From assembly GCA_025360645.1 (NCBI GenBank), contig JANYBT010000030.1, forward strand, positions 1 through 37,673: a DNA stretch of 37,673 nt, given 5' to 3'. Shown one piece after another: positions 7,382-15,789 of this stretch. This stretch comes from Acidobacteriaceae bacterium (GTDB lineage Bacteria; Acidobacteriota; Terriglobia; Terriglobales; Acidobacteriaceae). The notes beneath the pieces were generated by a model, which saw only the letters and a list, made by a program, of their open reading frames with translations, searched no databases and had not been told where the DNA came from. The translations under genes and the position numbers were made by a program. Numbering within the stretch: the stretch's first letter is position 1; every line of letters begins with the position of its first letter.

Positions 7382-7409
7382 TTCTTGAAGTCGCTATTTC
7401 TTGAAGTCG
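7382..7409. repeat. 12-bp direct repeat at the end of kinase 1
   Basis: TTCTTGAAGTCG occurs at 7382-7393 and 7398-7409. On the minus strand the 16-nt unit covers the last codons and the TAG stop of the kinase gene, and the second copy lies just past the stop. It looks like a small local duplication. Confidence 0.7.
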
Positions 7410-10123
7410 GTGTTCCAGTTGGTCACCAACACCAGTGGCGAGGACAAGCCTTCCGGGTAGGTGGCGACGACAAAGCGCTGTCCGTCTGAAGCGGGAGCAT
7501 AGGGGACTCCCAGCGGCGCCAGGTAGCCAGCCTGATAAAGCACATGCGGCGGATCCATGGAAAACTCGTCACTGGCTGGGTTGACGCTGACGGCAAAAAA
7601 CGTTACGTCCAACCCGTAGAAGTACATTTCTTTGCTGTCGCCCCGCCAGGTTGGAAACGTGCCGCCACTCTGCGACACTTGCCACCGGCCTCCGCCGCTG
7701 GGGAAGTGAGTGACATAGATTTCTTCCCGTCCCGACTCGGTGGAACTGTAGGCCAGCCAGCGGCCATTGGGAGAGAGGCGATACTGAACAATTCTGGCTT
7801 GGGGAGACGGTGATTGCAGAATTGAAATCGGCTTCTCGTCGCCCGTGGTAGGGAGGGCCCAGATGCCAGCTCCGGAAGGACCCGACTGCTCCAGGTGAAG
7901 CAGGTAGCGACCATCCGGGGACCACTGTGGAGTGAGTTGGGATAAAAATTGTCCGCCAGAATCGCTCTTCATCAACGTTTCTTCCTGGCCGCTGCCGTTG
8001 GCGAATCTTGCGCAGAGGGAGGTTCCCATGGCCGGAGTCGCCCCAGCCTGTTTGGTATAAACCACCCGCTGTCCGTCGGCAGACCAGGAGGGTTCCAGAT
8101 GAGTGGCGCCGCCAAAAGTGAGGCGGGTGCGCGAGCCGCTCGCCAGGTCAAACACCCAAATATCAGCCTGAGGATCCCCCACGGCGATGGCGAGGCGTTT
8201 GCCATCGGGAGAGATCTGGCCGCTGCCTTTGTAAGGGCCCCGTTCCGCCACCTTGCCTAGAGTCTTCCCGCTGCGGTCTTGCCACAACAGATCGATGCCG
8301 CGGGCCTTGGAGCCGGGTTCATAGACCAGTAAGCCGTTTTGGCTGGCGGCGAACGAGGTGTGCCATGTGCCGGAATCATATTCCACCGAGTTGGCGACTG
8401 GCATCGCCTCGCCGGAGAACGTACCCGTGACCGGATCGAACTTCTGAGCCAGCAACGACGATTGAAGATGGTAGAGCAGATAGCCGGACGCATACTGAGC
8501 GTCGGAATCCGCATCAAGCACGCGCTTATATGACCCGTCGAGGAGGGAACCGAGATAAACGCCCTGGTCCGACCCGCCGGAGTGATTGGTAGCGAAAAAC
8601 AAGAAATGCTTTCCGTCGGGTAGGAAGCTGGGCCAGCGATGGGTGGTGTGCTTGGCGCCATCGAACTTCGTCAAGCGTTGCGGGGTTCCGCCCGAGGCGC
8701 TGATTCGCCACAAGGAGTCGCGATAATCCGGCTCGTAGATGATGACGTTGTCCTGGTTCCAGGACCCGCCCCGTGCATTGGGGGCCTCTGCCAGAATGGT
8801 GATCGGGCCGCCAGCGGCTGGGATTTTTTTCAAGTGGCCGTCGGCAAAGAAGCCGATCGATTTGCCGTCGGCAGACCAGAACGGAAAGATCGCACCGTCG
8901 GTGCCGTCGAGGTGCGTTGCGGTCAGGTCGCCGAAGAACTGCACCCAGAGGGTCTGGCGCTGCTTTTGAACGCGAGCGCAAAACGCGACGGCGGTGCCGT
9001 CGGCACTGATCGCCGGAGGACCCGAGAAATCACCGGTGAAGTCGAAGCCAGTCTCGGCGGGAGGAGGTAAATAGGACCGCAGGGTTGGTGCCGGCTCATG
9101 GGCTCGCAGGTTCGACGCGACCAAAGCCGCCAGCAGCAGGGCGGCCGCCGCCGCCCACAGCATGCGCTCGCGCAGGCGACGCCGCGGCGGTTCCAACGGC
9201 GCCGGGCTGATGCCGGAACCGCCCGCCGCAATCCAGCGCAACTCGCGGCCCACATCGGCGGCATTCTGCCAGCGCGATTCCGGATCCTTGGCCAGGCACT
9301 CCTGGACCACGTGGTCGAGCGCGGCCGGCGCCATGGGCTGAATCTTGCTCAGCGGCTCCGGCTCTTTCTCCAGAATGGCTGAGGCCACGGAGATTTGGCT
9401 CTTGCCCTCAAAGGCGTGCTTGCCTGTGATCATCTCGTACAACACGCAGCCAAAGCTGAAGATGTCGCTGCGCGCGTCGGCTTCCCGGCCCTGCAGCACC
9501 TCTGGCGCCATGAACTGGAAGGTGCCGACGATCGAGCCTTGCTGGGTAAGGGCTCCCGGCGAGGCAGCCAACGCCGACAGGTTCATGGTGGGAGTGGAGG
9601 GCGTCAGATGCCCGGTTTCGGCGGAGCCTATCGGGGCAAGTATCGCCGCCGCGGGCTTAGCCAGACCGAAATCCAGCAGCTTGGCGCCGGTGGCGGTGAG
9701 CATAATATTGCCCGGCTTCAAGTCGCGATGCACAATGCCGGCGCGATGGGCTTTCTCCAGCGCATCGCAAATCTGCACTCCGCACTCCAATGCTTGCTTA
9801 AGCGGAAGCGGCCCTTTCTGCAACCGCGTTTCCAGACTCTCGCCCTGCATATACTCCATCACCAGGTAGTCGGTTCCGTCCTGGTTGCCGACATCGTGCA
9901 GCACGCAAATGTGGGGATGGTTCAGGGAAGAGATGGCGCGGGCTTCGCGCTCAAAGCGCTGCTTGGCCTCAGGATTGGAAGAAAGGTGCGGCGGCAGGAT
10001 CTTGAGGGCGACGGTTCGGTCCAGGCGGGTGTCGCGGGCGCGGTACACTTCGCCCATTCCGCCAGCGCCTAGCGGCGCCTGAATCTCATACGGGCCAAGT
10101 TTGGTGCCAGCGGTAAGAGCCAT
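7394..10123 (-). CDS. Receptor-like Ser/Thr protein kinase with C-terminal TolB/WD40-like propeller (kinase 1)
   Basis: This 909-residue protein has a Hanks-type kinase domain at about 12-275: Gly-rich loop GAGGMG (19-24), Lys41 in VALKIL, HRDLKPGN (132-139), DFG (151-153), and APE (206-208). A membrane helix at about 321-337 follows an Arg-rich stretch. The rest (about 345-905) shows TolB/PD40-like propeller motifs such as DGKSIGFFADG, LPDGKHFLFF, SPDGKRLAI and SPDGRYLLHL. The topology would put the kinase inside and the propeller outside. Ligand and substrates are unknown. The active-site residues appear intact. It is a paralogue of the next gene (10197-12761), sharing the start [14 protein letters not shown]. 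It has a TATAAT box 10 nt before the ATG and no Shine-Dalgarno sequence. Confidence 0.93.
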   Translation of the reverse strand: MALTAGTKLGPYEIQAPLGAGGMGEVYRARDTRLDRTVALKILPPHLSSNPEAKQRFEREARAISSLNHPHICVLHDVGNQDGTDYLVMEYMQGESLETRLQKGPLPLKQALECGVQICDALEKAHRAGIVHRDLKPGNIMLTATGAKLLDFGLAKPAAAILAPIGSAETGHLTPSTPTMNLSALAASPGALTQQGSIVGTFQFMAPEVLQGREADARSDIFSFGCVLYEMITGKHAFEGKSQISVASAILEKEPEPLSKIQPMAPAALDHVVQECLAKDPESRWQNAADVGRELRWIAAGGSGISPAPLEPPRRRLRERMLWAAAAALLLAALVASNLRAHEPAPTLRSYLPPPAETGFDFTGDFSGPPAISADGTAVAFCARVQKQRQTLWVQFFGDLTATHLDGTDGAIFPFWSADGKSIGFFADGHLKKIPAAGGPITILAEAPNARGGSWNQDNVIIYEPDYRDSLWRISASGGTPQRLTKFDGAKHTTHRWPSFLPDGKHFLFFATNHSGGSDQGVYLGSLLDGSYKRVLDADSDAQYASGYLLYHLQSSLLAQKFDPVTGTFSGEAMPVANSVEYDSGTWHTSFAASQNGLLVYEPGSKARGIDLLWQDRSGKTLGKVAERGPYKGSGQISPDGKRLAIAVGDPQADIWVFDLASGSRTRLTFGGATHLEPSWSADGQRVVYTKQAGATPAMGTSLCARFANGSGQEETLMKSDSGGQFLSQLTPQWSPDGRYLLHLEQSGPSGAGIWALPTTGDEKPISILQSPSPQARIVQYRLSPNGRWLAYSSTESGREEIYVTHFPSGGGRWQVSQSGGTFPTWRGDSKEMYFYGLDVTFFAVSVNPASDEFSMDPPHVLYQAGYLAPLGVPYAPASDGQRFVVATYPEGLSSPLVLVTNWNTDFKK

Positions 10124-10196: not shown

Positions 10197-12761
10197 CTAC
10201 TCCAATCCCTCGACCACCGACAGAGTCCCCAGAACTCGCGTGGCGCTGTAGGCATAGGTCTTACTGGCCTCGGCATAGACCAGCCTGATTTTTCTTACGG
10301 AACCGGCTTTGTCGCTCAGCGCCATCGTCGTGAGCGGGATGTGCTTTCCGGTCGCGACTTCCACACGGTAGAGACTTGCCTCCGAAGGTGTGGCCGAAGT
10401 GACCAACAGAGCTTCTCCATCCAGCGTCCATCGTTGCAAGACTTCCTCGGGCCCAATCCCTGGGACCACCTGCATCTTCTGGGTCTCAAGATTGAAGACC
10501 GCCCATTCCGCGGACCCATTTCGACCGGCAATCCGCTTGCCATCATTGGCTACAGAAATCCCGGTGAAATCGGGCGGACCGATGGGTCGGGGTAGCCCAC
10601 CCTCGATATCCAACTCATAGGTGCGGAGCGGCTGCCCTTGGGGCGCCCCGTCGAGCAGCAAATGCTTGCCATCGGGGAACCATGACACCAAGCTGTCCAG
10701 AGTCACGAGGTCGCCCAAAGGCAGACGGCGGCTGTCTCCGGTTCCGACTGGGTTCAGCGCAACCTGTGGTGGCCGGGTTGGCAGTTGAGCCGCGGTCATG
10801 GTACCGTCCGGCGAAAATCTTGGGACAGCGCCCGGGCCCAACGCCACCGGCGCAGAGCCATCGAGTTTCCGGTATCCCACCAGATACAACGTACCGGCGG
10901 TGGGCCCGCCGTATTCCAGGAAAACGATGGCCTTCCCGTTTGGCAAAATGTCTGGGCTGGTGGACCCATTGAACCATTCCAGACCGCGACGTTCTTTGCC
11001 GGTCGCGGGGTCGATCCCGGTGATTTCGGTGCGATGGTCCTCGCTGGAGAGCAGCACGCGCCCATCCGCCGCGATGTCCAGAAGGCGCATTCGACGCGGC
11101 GCCGACAGGATTTCGCGGACTTTGCCCCCCAGGCTGACTCCGTAAAGAAGTTGATCGGCGGATCCCTGGGCGGCAGTGAACCAGATTTCCGTACCGGTGC
11201 GCGACCAAGCCAACCCCTGCGCACCGGCAAATTCCTCGGTTAGTTGTTTATGGTTTCCGGCAGCATCCACTAAGGCCACCCAGCCCCGGTCGTCGCCATA
11301 CAACGGATGTTCTAGAAAGGCGACTTCTTTGCCGCTGGGCGATACGCGTACGTAATCGGCATAACCGGCGGTAGTGTAAAGCACCTTTCCGACCGGGTAC
11401 TCCAATTGGACCTGGCGGTTGGCCTTGCGAACCACTGCCAGTGACTTGCCATCCGGACTATAGTCCGCGGCAATGACGTCCTTCTGTTGCACGCGCGGCG
11501 AACCCCCGGCCATTTGAGTCTGCGCCATGGTTCCAATTAGGAAAGCTGACTCGAACACCGGATCGACGGCAAGTTCCACATCGCCACTGGGGGAAAGCGC
11601 CAGGAGTGCCGCGCCCGGCAAATCCACTTTCACCGACTGCGGGAATTCCGTGCGGACGGAGTAAACCTGGAGTGGATCATTGTTCCATTGAGCGCTGTAG
11701 AGGATGGTTTGCCCGTCGTTGGCAAAGCGCGCACTCGAGGGATAGCCCTGTTGATAGGTCAGCCGAGTGTATTTCGGTTGCGCTTTGGTGGCGGACTTTC
11801 GCCCGACCAGCCACATCGCTCCGGCCAGGAGGCAAACGGCGATGGCCGCCGCTGCCCAAGGCCACCAGGCGCGCACTGCCTTGGGCTGTGCCAGGTTTTT
11901 GGTGGACGAGGTTCCGCTCAGCGATTCAATGGCAAACGCCAGATCGCTCGCCGATTGGAATCGGCGCTCGACATTTTTTTCCAGGCAGCGACCGAGAATG
12001 CGTTGCAATCCCAGCGGACCTTGCCAGCCGGTTTCGCTCAGTTCGGGAGGCTCTTCGCGCAAAATGGCAGTCATGGTTTCAGCGGAGGTGTTGCGTTTGA
12101 AGGCCCGCTTGCCAGTGAGCATTTCGTAGAGCACTGCGCCAAAACTGAAAATATCGGAGCGAGCGTCAGTGGCCTCGCCGCGCACCTGTTCGGGCGACAT
12201 ATAGCCGACCGTGCCCATCACCATGCCGGGCGAGGTGGCTCCGCTGGCCAGAGTCAATTGGGTTTCGTTGCTGTCCTTGGGAAGCGCCAGCTTCGCCAGG
12301 CCGAAGTCGAGGATTTTGACTCGACCATCGCGGGTGATAAAAATATTCTCCGGTTTCAGGTCGCGATGGATGACTGCCTTCTCGTGAGCCGCCGCCAGTC
12401 CCTGGGCGATGCCGAGCGCGTACTCGATGGTGCGCCGCACCGGCAGCGGCCCCGCGTCAAGTGTTTCCCGCAGCGAGGTTCCGTCCAGAAGCTCGCTGAC
12501 CAGAAAGGGCGCGCCGGCATGGGTTCCGATGTCGTGGATGCCGAGAATGTTGGGATGGTTCAAAGCTGCGATGGTGCGGGCTTCCTGCTCGAAACGGTGC
12601 AGCCGGTCGGCGTCGGCGGTGAGCGACTCCAGCAGGACTTTAATGGCGACATCGCGTCCCAAACGGGTGTCCTTCGCGCGGTACACTTCGCCCATTCCGC
12701 CCGAACCCAGCGGCGCAACGATTTCGTAGGGACCGAGTTTGGTACCGGCGGTAAGGGCCAT
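10197..12761 (-). CDS. Receptor-like Ser/Thr protein kinase with C-terminal propeller (kinase 2)
   Basis: This 854-residue paralogue of the preceding gene has its kinase domain at about 12-280: GSGGMG (19-24), Lys41 in [14 protein letters not shown] (132-139), DFG (152-154), and SPE in [12 protein letters not shown] Trp-rich membrane helix lies at about 300-319. The 530-residue extracytoplasmic part is beta-rich with PD40/TolB-like motifs ([47 protein letters not shown]), though less regular than in kinase 1. The kinase regions are clearly similar while the sensor parts have diverged, so the two probably sense different signals. It lies 73 bases upstream of kinase 1 on the same strand and has its own TATAAT box, so it is separately transcribed at least in part. 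Confidence 0.93.
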
Positions 12762-12903: not shown

Positions 12904-13968
12904 TTACACAGGCCGTCGCGGCATCAAGCAGCAATCCAGCGGACACACGTCGTGGCTGGGGCCGAATGCGCCCAGGGCGAGGCGCACCGGATCCGCCGAC
13001 ATGCGTTCCACGATCAACTCGCGAATCATGCTGATGAAAGCCGGGTGTGCTCCCACTGTGCCGGCGCGGGCCATGGGCAGGTCAAGCTGCTGGCAGAGGT
13101 CGAGCGCTTCGGTATCGAGATCGTAGAGAACTTCCATGTGGTCGGAGATGAAACCGATGGGCGCGATGACCACTGCCGGCGCCGCCTGCTCCTGCTTCAC
13201 TTGGCGCAGGTAGTCGAGGATATCGGGCTCCAGCCAGGGTTGAGTGGCGGGACCGCTGCGGCTCTGGAAGACCAGGCGATGCGTCGGTCTGGCCAGTTCA
13301 TTCGAAACCAGGCCGGAGCGGCCCACTTCGGCAGAGACCAGGCGGCAGGCCTCCTCCAGTTGCTTGACGTAATTGCATCCCTGGGCCATGGAAAGCGGAA
13401 TGCTGTGGGCGGTGAAGATGATGTGAGCCTGGTCGCGCAGAGGCTCGGGGAGTTGGGCGGTGGCGGTGCGCACGCGTTCCGCCATGGGCAGCACAAATCC
13501 GGGATGGTTGAAGAATACGCGCAGCTTGTCCACCTGCGGCGCGCCTTCGCCTACTTCGGCCTGGGCGGCGGCGATGTTCTCGCGATACTGGCGGCAGCCG
13601 GAGTAAGAACTGTAGGCGGAGGTAAAGAATCCGAGGGCGCGCTGGATGCCGTCCGCCTTCATCTGGCGCAGAGTATCGGCCAGCATGGGATGCCAGTTGC
13701 GATTGCCCCAGTAGATCGGCAGGTGGGGCCCGTGCTGGGCCAGTTCAGCATCAAGAGCCGCGATCAACTGACGGTTCTGCTGGTTGATGGGGCTGCGTCC
13801 GCCGAAATGCTGGTAGTGCTCAGACACGGCCAGCATGCGTTCGCGGGGCACGTTTTTGCCTCGCAACACGTTTTCCAGGAAAGGCATGACTTCCTCGGGG
13901 GCTTCAGGGCCGCCAAAGGAAACCAGGAGGATGGCATCGTAGTTGGGATTCGGGTTGATCTCGGTCAT
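12904..13968 (-). CDS. hemH: Ferrochelatase with cysteines for a [2Fe-2S] cluster
   Basis: Ferrochelatase inserts Fe2+ into a porphyrin late in heme synthesis. The protein has 354 residues. It shows LLVSFGGPEAPEEVMPFL at the N terminus, the YWGNRNW motif, TSAYSSYSGCRQYRENI, and the active-site His in FTAHSIPLSMAQG (about H188); PIGFISDHMEVLYDLDTEA follows near the C terminus. Cys125, Cys342, Cys346 and Cys347 correspond in kind to the cluster ligands known from Mycobacterium and Myxococcus ferrochelatases (one internal Cys, three C-terminal), so a [2Fe-2S] cluster is likely by inference. Whether the substrate is protoporphyrin or coproporphyrin is not decided by the sequence. A 15-bp tandem repeat lies 9 bases before the start codon. 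The cytochrome c gene lies 230 bases upstream on the same strand. Confidence 0.94.
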   Translation of the reverse strand: MTEINPNPNYDAILLVSFGGPEAPEEVMPFLENVLRGKNVPRERMLAVSEHYQHFGGRSPINQQNRQLIAALDAELAQHGPHLPIYWGNRNWHPMLADTLRQMKADGIQRALGFFTSAYSSYSGCRQYRENIAAAQAEVGEGAPQVDKLRVFFNHPGFVLPMAERVRTATAQLPEPLRDQAHIIFTAHSIPLSMAQGCNYVKQLEEACRLVSAEVGRSGLVSNELARPTHRLVFQSRSGPATQPWLEPDILDYLRQVKQEQAAPAVVIAPIGFISDHMEVLYDLDTEALDLCQQLDLPMARAGTVGAHPAFISMIRELIVERMSADPVRLALGAFGPSHDVCPLDCCLMPRRPV

Positions 13969-14198: not shown

Positions 14199-14516
14199 CT
14201 ACTTCTTCAGGCCGCGGACGTATTTCACGAGCTCGTTGATCTGGTCCGCGCTCAACTTGCCGTCATAGGCGGGCATCTTGCCTTTGCCCTTGGTGATGAG
14301 GGCGTTCAGGTCGGCGTCCGACTGCTTCTGGACGTCAGCCGAGGCCAGGTCGCGCAGCTTCAGGCTTTTCCCCATGCCGGTTTCGCCCTTACCATCCGCG
14401 CCATGGCACAAAGCGCACTTGGCTTTGAAGGTGTCGCCAGCATCGGCAAATGACCAAGTGGAAAACACAAAAGTGACCGCCAACAGAACCAGAAAGATTC
14501 GAAAGGTATTTTTCAT
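14199..14516 (-). CDS. Small secreted c-type cytochrome
   Basis: This 105-residue protein has a signal peptide (MKNTFRIFLVLLAVTFVFS, cleaved near SFA-DAG), one heme c motif CALCH and a likely axial Met in GKGKMPAYDGK. It is a class I monoheme cytochrome c resembling the cbb3-type/c6-like periplasmic carriers (cytochrome_CBB3 domain). It probably carries electrons in the periplasm; its partner is unknown. A clear ribosome site, GAGGAGA, lies about 8 nt before the ATG. hemH lies downstream on the same strand, which fits a heme theme, but the 230-base gap gives no proof of an operon. Confidence 0.9.
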   Translation of the reverse strand: MKNTFRIFLVLLAVTFVFSTWSFADAGDTFKAKCALCHGADGKGETGMGKSLKLRDLASADVQKQSDADLNALITKGKGKMPAYDGKLSADQINELVKYVRGLKK

Positions 14517-14904
14517 TTCCAGCGTCTCCTCGTTGAGTGAATGAATGAATGCAATTGCCGCGTGTCCCGCAAACCTGAGCGCAGAGTTGACGGCGACTTA
14601 ACATAGCAGAAACGAGAGGCGAAACGATGTGTTTTGCATCACAGTTTTGAAATTTTGTTGCGATTTGCAACAGCCAGCCATCGGCACGAGTTTGGCCTGC
14701 TGAGTTTCCCACCGCGCTCGCTCCCCGCAAAAAGACACTGGCGACGAGTGATATGCCGCAGTAAGACCGTCCAAAAGGCCAGCCCTGCAAATGGCGTGGC
14801 CTGTAAGTGATTGAGACTAATAGGGCAGGTTCAATTTCGATCTCGCTTCAGGTTTGGCTATCGCTTTGCCTGAACTGAGGCAGGGCAAGCTGGGAAACGA
14901 GCCA
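14517..14904. other. Divergent intergenic region between cytochrome c and the GluTR-like gene
   Basis: No gene is seen in these 388 bases. They hold the cytochrome c ribosome site, a TGAA microrepeat (14538-14551), a small hairpin GTTGC/GCAAC (14657-14671) and a better hairpin at 14776-14802 (AGGCCA-GCC paired with GGC-TGGCCT, one bulge). Promoters for both genes must lie here, but no convincing -35/-10 pair could be read. Confidence 0.5.
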
Positions 14905-15681
14905 ATGCAACCGAACTTCATGATCATCGGGCTGACCCAAGACACGGCGCCGGCGTCGGTGTGGCAGCGGTTTTGGATCAGCGATAGCCGGACCTACGAA
15001 GCCCTGGGGGAGTTGTCACGGGCGGAGGGCGTGGAGGAACTGGTGGTGGTGGCCAGCCATGAACGGACCGAGTTCTTGCTCTGGACCGCCGATGCCAGCC
15101 TGGCCGCCAATTCGGTGTTGCGGTTCCTGACTGCGGAGTACGGGCTGACCTTGTGCGAATGGAAAACGTTTTACCGCCGGTTGGATGAATCCGCGCTGGA
15201 GCATTTGTTCCGCACTGCCGCCGGTCCGCGAGGGGCTTCCGAACTGGAGACGGCGCTACAGCAAGCGCAGAGCCTGGGGGCTTGCGGCACGGTACTGGCT
15301 GCGGTGCTGCAGAAAGCTCTGGCGGTGGCGCAAAGCGCTAGCAGCATTGGCCAAGACGAGGTATTTCGCAGCGAAGCTCGCCGGTTCCAGAAAGAATTGC
15401 TGGCCGGTTATGGCGCGGCGTTCACCTTCAAGCTGCGCCACCGCATCAGCGAGTTTTGCCGCAAAGAGTTGGAGATCTTCGCGCGGCAATATGGGCCGCT
15501 CCCGGAAGACCAAGAACGGCTGCTGAAACAAGTTTCCTGGCGGGTGGCCCAGAAAGCAGCGGCGGAGGTGACTCGCGAAGTAAGCCAAATCGCCGACCGC
15601 AGCGACCGGGAGGGAACACAACTGCTGCTGAATCGGATGCTGGAACCGGAGAAACGGGTTGCGGCGAGTGCAGCCAAATAA
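14905..15681 (+). CDS. Glutamyl-tRNA-reductase-like protein lacking catalytic Cys and NADPH domain
   Basis: This 258-residue protein is collinear with the N-terminal domain of HemA: MIIGLTQDTAP fits the GxNHxTAP start, VVVASHERTEF fits the LSTCNRTEL motif, and ALEHLFRTAAGPRGASELE fits the region before the GEPQILGQ motif. The catalytic Cys is replaced by His (about residue 52) and GEPQILGQ is not conserved. The whole Rossmann NADPH domain is missing; after about residue 150 the sequence passes to a helical part (EARRFQKELL ... FCRKELEIFARQYG ... LLNRML) like the HemA dimerisation domain. It should not be a working reductase; a regulatory or scaffold role is conceivable. The start ATG at 14905 is chosen because the HemA-like part begins there; a TTG at 14854 is in frame. 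A strong terminator follows at 15766. Confidence 0.75.
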   Translation: MQPNFMIIGLTQDTAPASVWQRFWISDSRTYEALGELSRAEGVEELVVVASHERTEFLLWTADASLAANSVLRFLTAEYGLTLCEWKTFYRRLDESALEHLFRTAAGPRGASELETALQQAQSLGACGTVLAAVLQKALAVAQSASSIGQDEVFRSEARRFQKELLAGYGAAFTFKLRHRISEFCRKELEIFARQYGPLPEDQERLLKQVSWRVAQKAAAEVTREVSQIADRSDREGTQLLLNRMLEPEKRVAASAAK

Positions 15682-15765
15682 GCGGCAGGCAGAGAAAACA
15701 CGGTAATCATTAGACTCGATTCATAACCCTTCTCCATTCGTACAGGTATCCATTCATACTGGCAG

Positions 15766-15789
15766 GGCCCTCGCGAGAGGGCCTTTTTT
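15766..15789 (+). terminator. Rho-independent terminator
   Basis: A perfect 7-bp stem, GGCCCTC (15766-15772) and GAGGGCC (15777-15783), closes a GCGA tetraloop and is followed directly by TTTTTT. It lies 85 bases after the stop of the GluTR-like gene and ends that transcript. Confidence 0.9.

Follow-up and report, generated by a model that had tools for sequence, protein, structure and literature searches.

A gene in the window (the whole stretch of 37,673 nucleotides analysed here, from an Acidobacteriaceae genome) encodes a protein derived from glutamyl-tRNA reductase (GluTR, HemA) in which domain I is joined to dimerisation-like helices. Its sequence marks it as orthologous to HemA2, the name given here to a second GluTR of Terriglobia. 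The explanation that we favour, with a probability of about 0.55, is that the gene is a HemA2 turned pseudoenzyme, which has been retained as an inducible binding protein that tunes the formation of ALA. Literature searches for a GluTR pseudoenzyme returned no paper. A family in which one gene and promoter go with seemingly working proteins, with proteins devoid of the Cys and with proteins devoid of a whole domain provides a natural experiment on the non-catalytic roles of GluTR.

In most bacteria, GluTR is the enzyme of the committed step towards heme (PMC6399207); its mechanism, as described there, involves an attack by a Cys giving a thioester, followed by transfer of a hydride from the NADPH of the second domain. 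Catalysis would be impossible in the window protein because the Cys and the NADPH domain are gone and the GEP loop is broken; from the known mechanism, the thioester would be neither formed nor reduced. In the scheme that we propose, the protein would be expressed when an enhancer-binding protein activates the promoter located beside a divergent cytochrome c gene. Domain I, with its HemA2-specific residues, and the spinal and dimerisation helices would then dock on the genuine reductase (HemA1), on HemL or on Glu-tRNA, and docking on the ALA-forming system would tune the flux into heme.

To our knowledge, the plant proteins FLU and GBP and the bacterial protein HemX, all non-enzymatic partners of GluTR, bear no sequence relation to it, unlike the candidate modulator described here, which derives from the enzyme itself. 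Protein-level tuning of ALA synthesis, the role proposed here, would resemble that of FLU and GBP (PMC4726326) and of HemX (PMC10991733). In PMC10991733, the control of bacterial GluTR is presented as incompletely understood, the mode of action of HemX for instance being unsolved.

Anatomy and descent of the window protein

The features of the region are collected in Table 1. The frame runs from ATG to TAA (258 aa) with zero internal stops, as the initial annotation had it, and its G+C content by codon position is gene-like. Domain I spans residues ~1-142 and is followed by a spinal helix and a dimerisation-like region (~145-258). The assignment of the N-terminal part to HemA domain I, made by eye in that annotation, was borne out by a match to the Pfam family GlutR_N over residues 8-145 (58 bits, E 1.2e-15, cut-off 27); the NCBIfam hemA models TIGR01035 and NF000744 gave 49-61 bits, for cut-offs of 209.55 and 429. 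No Rossmann-type domain was matched in a Pfam search extended to E 10, and ~164 residues of the Rossmann (NADPH) domain are missing in frame in an alignment with six HemA2 orthologues, in agreement with the absence claimed earlier. In the same alignment the ATCNRTE of the orthologues is replaced by ASHERTE (His for Cys and Glu for Asn), the GxNHxTAP position reads GLTQDTAP, and 8 residues (LDSMxxGE) that make up most of the GEP loop are missing in frame; the reported replacement of the catalytic Cys by His and loss of GEPQILGQ are thus confirmed.

Table 1. Features of the hemA2 region of the window
Feature	Position	Strand	Basis or remark
hemH, ferrochelatase	12904..13968	-	450.8 bits, cut-off 408
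Small cytochrome c, divergent, recurrent neighbour of HemA2	14199..14516	-	family match, neighbourhood comparison
13-mer GTGATATGCCGCA, enhancer-like (UAS)	14748..14760	+	conserved; occurs exactly once in the genome
TAAGTGATTGA, IHF-like site (YAANNNNYTGA), flanked by the UAS and the promoter	14804..14814	+	pattern match
TTGGC-TATCGCTT-TGC, sigma-54-type -24/-12 promoter (predicted)	14854..14869	+	pattern match; genome encodes RpoN
HemA2 pseudo-GluTR gene	14905..15681	+	Pfam, alignment, AlphaFold model, Foldseek, structure alignment
ASHERTE (ATCNRTE in relatives), codons 50-56; His at codon 52, the position of the catalytic Cys	15052..15072	+	alignment
Site where 8 residues (most of LDSMxxGE) are deleted in frame	15220..15231	+	alignment
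Junction, ~164 Rossmann codons missing	15325..15360	+	exact join varies by ~10 codons between alignments
Terminator-like hairpin with a T run after it	15764..15785	+	82 nt past the stop codon

The AlphaFold model of the window protein had a pLDDT of 88.6 and a pTM of 0.76. The alignment supplied to the predictor was composed of the window protein and related loci, GluTRs included, and the GluTR-like fold obtained is a confirmation and not an independent discovery. A Foldseek search of the PDB returned seven matches at E<=0.001, every one a GluTR, and alignment of the model with 5yjl_B by VIA-align gave a Z of 23.1 over 233 of the 258 residues (rmsd 5.5) with both chain ends covered. Structure prediction, proposed in the initial annotation as a check, thus supported the GluTR fold and ancestry. 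For the dimerisation-like tail that it described, the indications were mixed: the model aligns over this region, though with GluTRs in the predictor alignment, and the GlutR_dimer match (residues 176-244, 19.4 bits, E 0.0013) is below the gathering cut-off of 22.9. The "strong" terminator was not established, as two such hairpins occur in the region for an average of 2.4 in shuffled sequences.

The Pfam match, the alignment, the model, the Foldseek search and the structure alignment indicate that the resemblance to GluTR is not due to chance, and the anatomy and descent of the gene are secure. Domain I and, probably, the spinal and dimerisation-type helices are shared with GluTR HemA/GtrR (TIGR01035, NF000744; PDB 1gpj, 4n7r, 5che, 5yjl), from which the window protein differs by having no catalytic Cys, GEP loop or NADPH domain. 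That an assembly error fused the two ends of a normal hemA2 is scarcely credible even for a draft genome in 158 contigs, since the surviving parts also carry the Cys-to-His change and a separate 8-codon gap and since the same kind of gene is found in two other genomes. Apart from HemA1, PF01488 matched only two places in the genome, both more weakly and on contigs where no GlutR domain was found; the one located near a contig end had a best HemA E of 0.019 over 41 residues, which is not significant.

HemA2, a second GluTR of Terriglobia

Domain I of the window protein is 38-62% identical to the HemA2 matches, mostly >=50%, which places it closer to HemA2 than to HemA1 of its own genome (28%). 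HemA2 was detected in 78 of 398 sampled genomes of the family, its own included (E<=1e-18), and a class-wide sample of 399 genomes gave a match in 23 (E<=1e-14), of which 11 belong to other families. Ten named HemA2 loci belong to Acidobacteriaceae/Terriglobia MAGs, including four of Candidatus Sulfotelmatobacter. When genome contigs were scanned with the HemA2 alignment, the best 80 of 293 relatives comprised 10 HemA2, the others being HemA1-like by best score; a scan of genome contigs with the window protein alone yielded zero relatives, and a genus search for close relatives of the window copy returned only its own genome.

The window protein keeps 17 of the 22 near-invariant residues of domain I, those lost being R20, E21, the Cys, the Asp of the deleted loop and a Trp, and it keeps all nine HemA2-type residues that differ from HemA1 of its own genome (T55, F57, W60, A67, S70, L75, W86, F89 and R91). 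The C-terminal part retains 6 of 11 near-invariant residues. The start site, the signature residues, the divergent cytochrome c gene, the sigma-54-type promoter and the UAS are common to the window copy and to full-length HemA2; unlike the window copy, most HemA2 retain the Cys and the Rossmann domain.

To compare loci, 80 HemA2 were collected, and eight of them (L072-L078 and L107) were dropped before Cys counts and trees, being located at contig ends or showing frame changes. Cys52 is kept in 60 of the 72 readable loci, and the TCNRTE motif is kept in 11/11 HemA2 from outside the family. HemA2 was probably intact in the ancestor. The initial annotation had named full-length orthologues as a sign of local decay, and in this respect its own check goes against it: some orthologues have lost the Cys and the domain, but most are full-length with both.

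These counts are what would be expected if HemA2 were an accessory inducible reductase in the course of being lost, the window copy having stayed open by chance after losing catalysis and two pieces. The patchy presence of HemA2 in family genomes points in the same direction, and decay does occur in the group, with three frame-changed loci (L073, L076 and L077) and five copies of the full-length class that end at 400-417 aa. We consider local decay unlikely, although it has appreciable weight; the evidence bearing against it is given with the recurrence of the losses, the selection analysis and the promoter.

Several HemA2 loci have unusual structures. Loci L073, L076 and L077 have missing pieces in addition to the change of frame and are either pseudogenes or assembly errors. 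The copies with an early end form a sub-clade (L119, L122, L128, L138 and L139) in which the Cys is present and the last conserved helix residues are absent. Genome G229 carries two HemA2, a full-length one with Cys (L100, contig C25) and a Rossmann-less, Cys52-less one (L111, contig C131).

Catalytic features are lost repeatedly in HemA2

Cys52 is missing in 12 of the 72 readable loci, where it is replaced by Ser, Gln, Arg, Gly, Ser, Arg, Pro, Arg, Ala, Pro, Arg and, in the window, His. At least 8 changes at this position are required on the tree, 6 of them forced by starred branches. Between 19 and 21 of the 22 near-invariant residues of domain I persist in the full-length copies without Cys52. 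In L079 (293 aa) and L111 (298 aa) the Rossmann domain is gone in frame as well, and these two loci match only GlutR_N and GlutR_dimer. All three Rossmann-less copies, counting that of the window, also lack Cys52 (p 0.0037 in a hypergeometric test without correction for kinship).

The relationships of the Rossmann-less copies were analyzed by clade tests that used 39 of 74 rows. A single clade of the window copy, L079 and L111 was rejected (p 2e-16), as were clades of L079 with L111 (p 7e-6) and of the window copy with L111 (p 0.014); a clade of the window copy with L079 was not rejected (p 0.35). At least two separate excisions of the Rossmann domain are therefore supported, and three are probable in view of the different join sequences and residues. 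Genus searches of 24 and 45 genomes revealed no Rossmann-less sister genes beyond L079 and L111. Pseudoenzymes in general have lost catalytic residues and retained the fold, as has the window protein; beyond this, HemA2 has lost a whole cofactor domain, and more than once.

Among full-length copies, the GEP motif is intact in 1 of 9 without Cys52 compared to 47 of 60 with Cys52 (Fisher p 0.00018), and the nucleotide-binding motif in 2 of 9 compared to 57 of 60 (Fisher p 3.7e-6), neither test being corrected for kinship. In independent pairs, breakdown of the motifs and loss of Cys52 mostly go in the same direction, the pairs being too few for significance. It is well supported that HemA2 repeatedly loses its catalytic Cys yet keeps its reading frame, and the recurrence of Cys and Rossmann losses in other loci with intact frames speaks against local decay of the window copy.

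The Cys may have been displaced by one position in relatives (TCNR to TCCR to TRCR), these copies possibly still being reductases. A Cys53 is indeed present in 7 of the 12 Cys52-less copies (L104, L111, L113, L126, L127, L129 and L132), among which are both sister pairs used for dN/dS below. Displaced catalysis is inapplicable to the window copy, in which the two positions are His-Glu, and to L042, L079, L109 and L134; with the GEP and nucleotide-binding motifs breaking down alongside the loss of Cys52, we regard it as very improbable.

HemA1 retains the catalytic Cys

A full hemA elsewhere in the genome, which the initial annotation suggested looking for, was found on another contig (G000:C105). 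It encodes a normal HemA of 427 aa with STCNRVE and GEPQILGQ, to which the window protein is 28% identical. HemA1 is present in 10 of the 12 genomes with a Cys52-less HemA2, each time with the catalytic Cys, and the Cys is kept in 23/23 further related loci. Among 70 HemA1-like loci of the wider set, the pattern could be read in 60, all with the Cys; STCNR occurs in one frame or another in 8 of the ten others, the last 2 remaining unread. Every readable HemA1 thus retains the catalytic Cys. Reference sequences from minus-strand loci lacked the first codon, which left the HemA1 query and one alignment a single residue short.

HemA1 was not found at E<=1e-20 in genomes G361 and G372 (78% and 84% complete), and incompleteness may be the cause. 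As their HemA2 are Cys52-less, this absence argues against reading these two copies as pseudoenzymes. The HemA2 of G361 (L126) and of G372 (L132) carry Pro-Cys at positions 52 and 53.

Selection on Cys-less copies and on the window branch

Purifying selection acts in Cys52-less relatives. Two sister pairs of Cys52-less copies gave an omega of 0.135 (L113/L127, 2dlnL of 107.6 versus omega=1) and of 0.104 (L126/L132, 147.3), both pairs carrying Cys53 and belonging to one sub-clade, so that the neighbouring Cys could have taken over. Single branches leading to Cys-less copies, whose omegas include the time preceding the loss, gave similarly low values: in copies with neither Cys52 nor Cys53, omega was 0.169 for L079 (2dlnL 39.0), 0.150 for L109 (38.6), 0.154 for L134 (31.6) and 0.059 for L042 (40.3, saturated), and it was 0.135-0.140 for L111, which has Cys53 (2dlnL of 36-39 for the L079 and L111 branches). 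With the reservation due to Cys53, recurrent loss of the Cys at dN/dS well below 1 weakens a simple reading as local decay.

Over the branch leading to the window copy, omega=1 was rejected with three reference pairs (2dlnL 36-51; dS saturated), and the frame has zero stops in 258 codons despite 53-57% amino-acid divergence. In simulations of neutral evolution to 43-47% identity, with the whole divergence charged to the window side, a mean of 11-13 stops accumulated and none of 300 frames stayed stop-free for each of four references. Other observations are more favourable to decay. No end branch of the tree is as long as that of the window copy (1.32 for a median of 0.1), and the C-terminal part of this copy has diverged, as seen from the residues kept and from the sub-cut-off Pfam match. 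Furthermore, 1.0-1.7% of simulated frames were stop-free if half of the divergence was neutral and 12-18% if a quarter was, so selection on the window copy may have ended recently. On balance, we lean towards the window copy still being functional.

More generally, GluTR may have a second, non-catalytic job, with HemA2 repeatedly becoming a pseudoenzyme and its NADPH domain being cut out in frame at least twice, and probably three times, to give a compact two-domain regulator of ALA synthesis that binds the genuine HemA, HemL or Glu-tRNA; we advance this broader proposal tentatively, at a little under even odds.

A conserved sigma-54-type promoter precedes HemA2

HemA2 genes are preceded by three blocks at fixed places, the 13-mer at ~-157, the IHF-like site at ~-101 and TTGGC-N8-TGC at ~-53. 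We take YAANNNNYTGA to be the IHF consensus and the spacing of TTGGC-N8-TGC, with its GG and GC elements, to be that of the sigma-54 -24/-12 promoter consensus. The -24/-12 pattern was exact in 66 of 79 loci (0 in shuffled sequences) and had at most one mismatch in 77 (1.4 in shuffles), while a spacing one base shorter or longer gave 0 exact matches. The 13-mer was exact in 25 of the 79 loci and had at most two mismatches in 60 (0.2 in shuffles), and the IHF-like pattern was exact in 38 (0.4 in shuffles); all these counts are inflated by kinship among loci. Outside the family, where no shuffles were made, the promoter was found with at most one mismatch at -51 to -61 in 9 of 10 HemA2 with upstream sequence. 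A search of window positions 14480-15000 against Rfam gave only four matches, far below the gathering score, and the conserved blocks are therefore read as DNA sites and not as a known RNA family. Combined, these patterns predict a sigma-54-type promoter for HemA2, and RpoN is encoded in the genome of the window.

In the window, the UAS, the IHF-like site and the -24/-12 elements are all exact, despite the longest end branch, and both deletions in the gene are in frame. The fully kept promoter, together with the two other cases in which the NADPH domain was lost in frame, further weakens a simple reading as local decay. The promoter suggests that heme synthesis in Acidobacteria is tied to a sigma-54 enhancer circuit; a literature search on such a connection returned no paper.

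Two candidates were rejected. As a marker of a regulon, the UAS has one exact copy in its own genome and 0-2 per genome in 12 relatives, 6 of which have any, with some copies lying away from HemA2. A sigma-54 site for the cytochrome c gene was exact in 1 of 49 loci, which is unconvincing. The UAS was not found (5 mismatches) in the Cys-less loci L042 and L134.

Neighbouring genes

The initial annotation had placed the gene near hemH and a cytochrome c gene. Both are present, but hemH, a neighbour here, is not near HemA2 in the six larger neighbourhoods that were compared. The divergent cytochrome c gene is recurrent, lying within 900 bases of HemA2 in 49 of 80 loci, the window included. The other recurrent neighbours form clusters of which one member each was scanned against families. 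A cluster of NtrC-type sigma-54 response regulators is represented in 27 loci, in 24 of which the gene is convergent downstream of HemA2, and is a candidate activator of the HemA2 promoter. A radical-SAM cluster is represented in 21 loci, in 15 of which the gene is upstream on the same strand, with a cytochrome c neighbour in 0/15; the member scanned, from L079, is AhbD-like (heme b synthase; 485 bits, cut-off 500). An iron-sulfur subunit of molybdenum hydroxylase is found in 18 loci and a Crp/Fnr regulator in 15. In the stretch of the window that was compared, none of the NtrC-type, radical-SAM, molybdenum-hydroxylase or Crp/Fnr genes was found. The neighbours of HemA2 fit an inducible respiratory or heme-demand circuit.

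The HemA2 scaffold could instead have been retained for a non-tetrapyrrole ligand, or for a redox or stress role tied to the cytochrome c and molybdenum-hydroxylase neighbours. The frequency of these neighbours and of the NtrC-type regulator is in keeping with such a role, as are the conserved HemA2-specific residues that differ from HemA1. The radical-SAM genes upstream on the same strand, AhbD-like in the one scanned, point to tetrapyrroles, and we give this explanation little credence compared with a pseudoenzyme that tunes ALA formation.

The NtrC-type regulator is present for example at L081, L082, L085, L093, L099, L100, L106, L113, L129 and L135, among others; downstream of HemA2 in the window, a DUF2203 gene stands in its place. 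The same-strand radical-SAM genes are those of L072, L074, L075, L077, L079-L081, L083-L086, L093, L096, L099 and L100. Beside hemH, two large tandem frames on the reverse strand (7394-10123 and 10197-12761) appear protein-kinase-like by eye and have the same 14-residue beginning.
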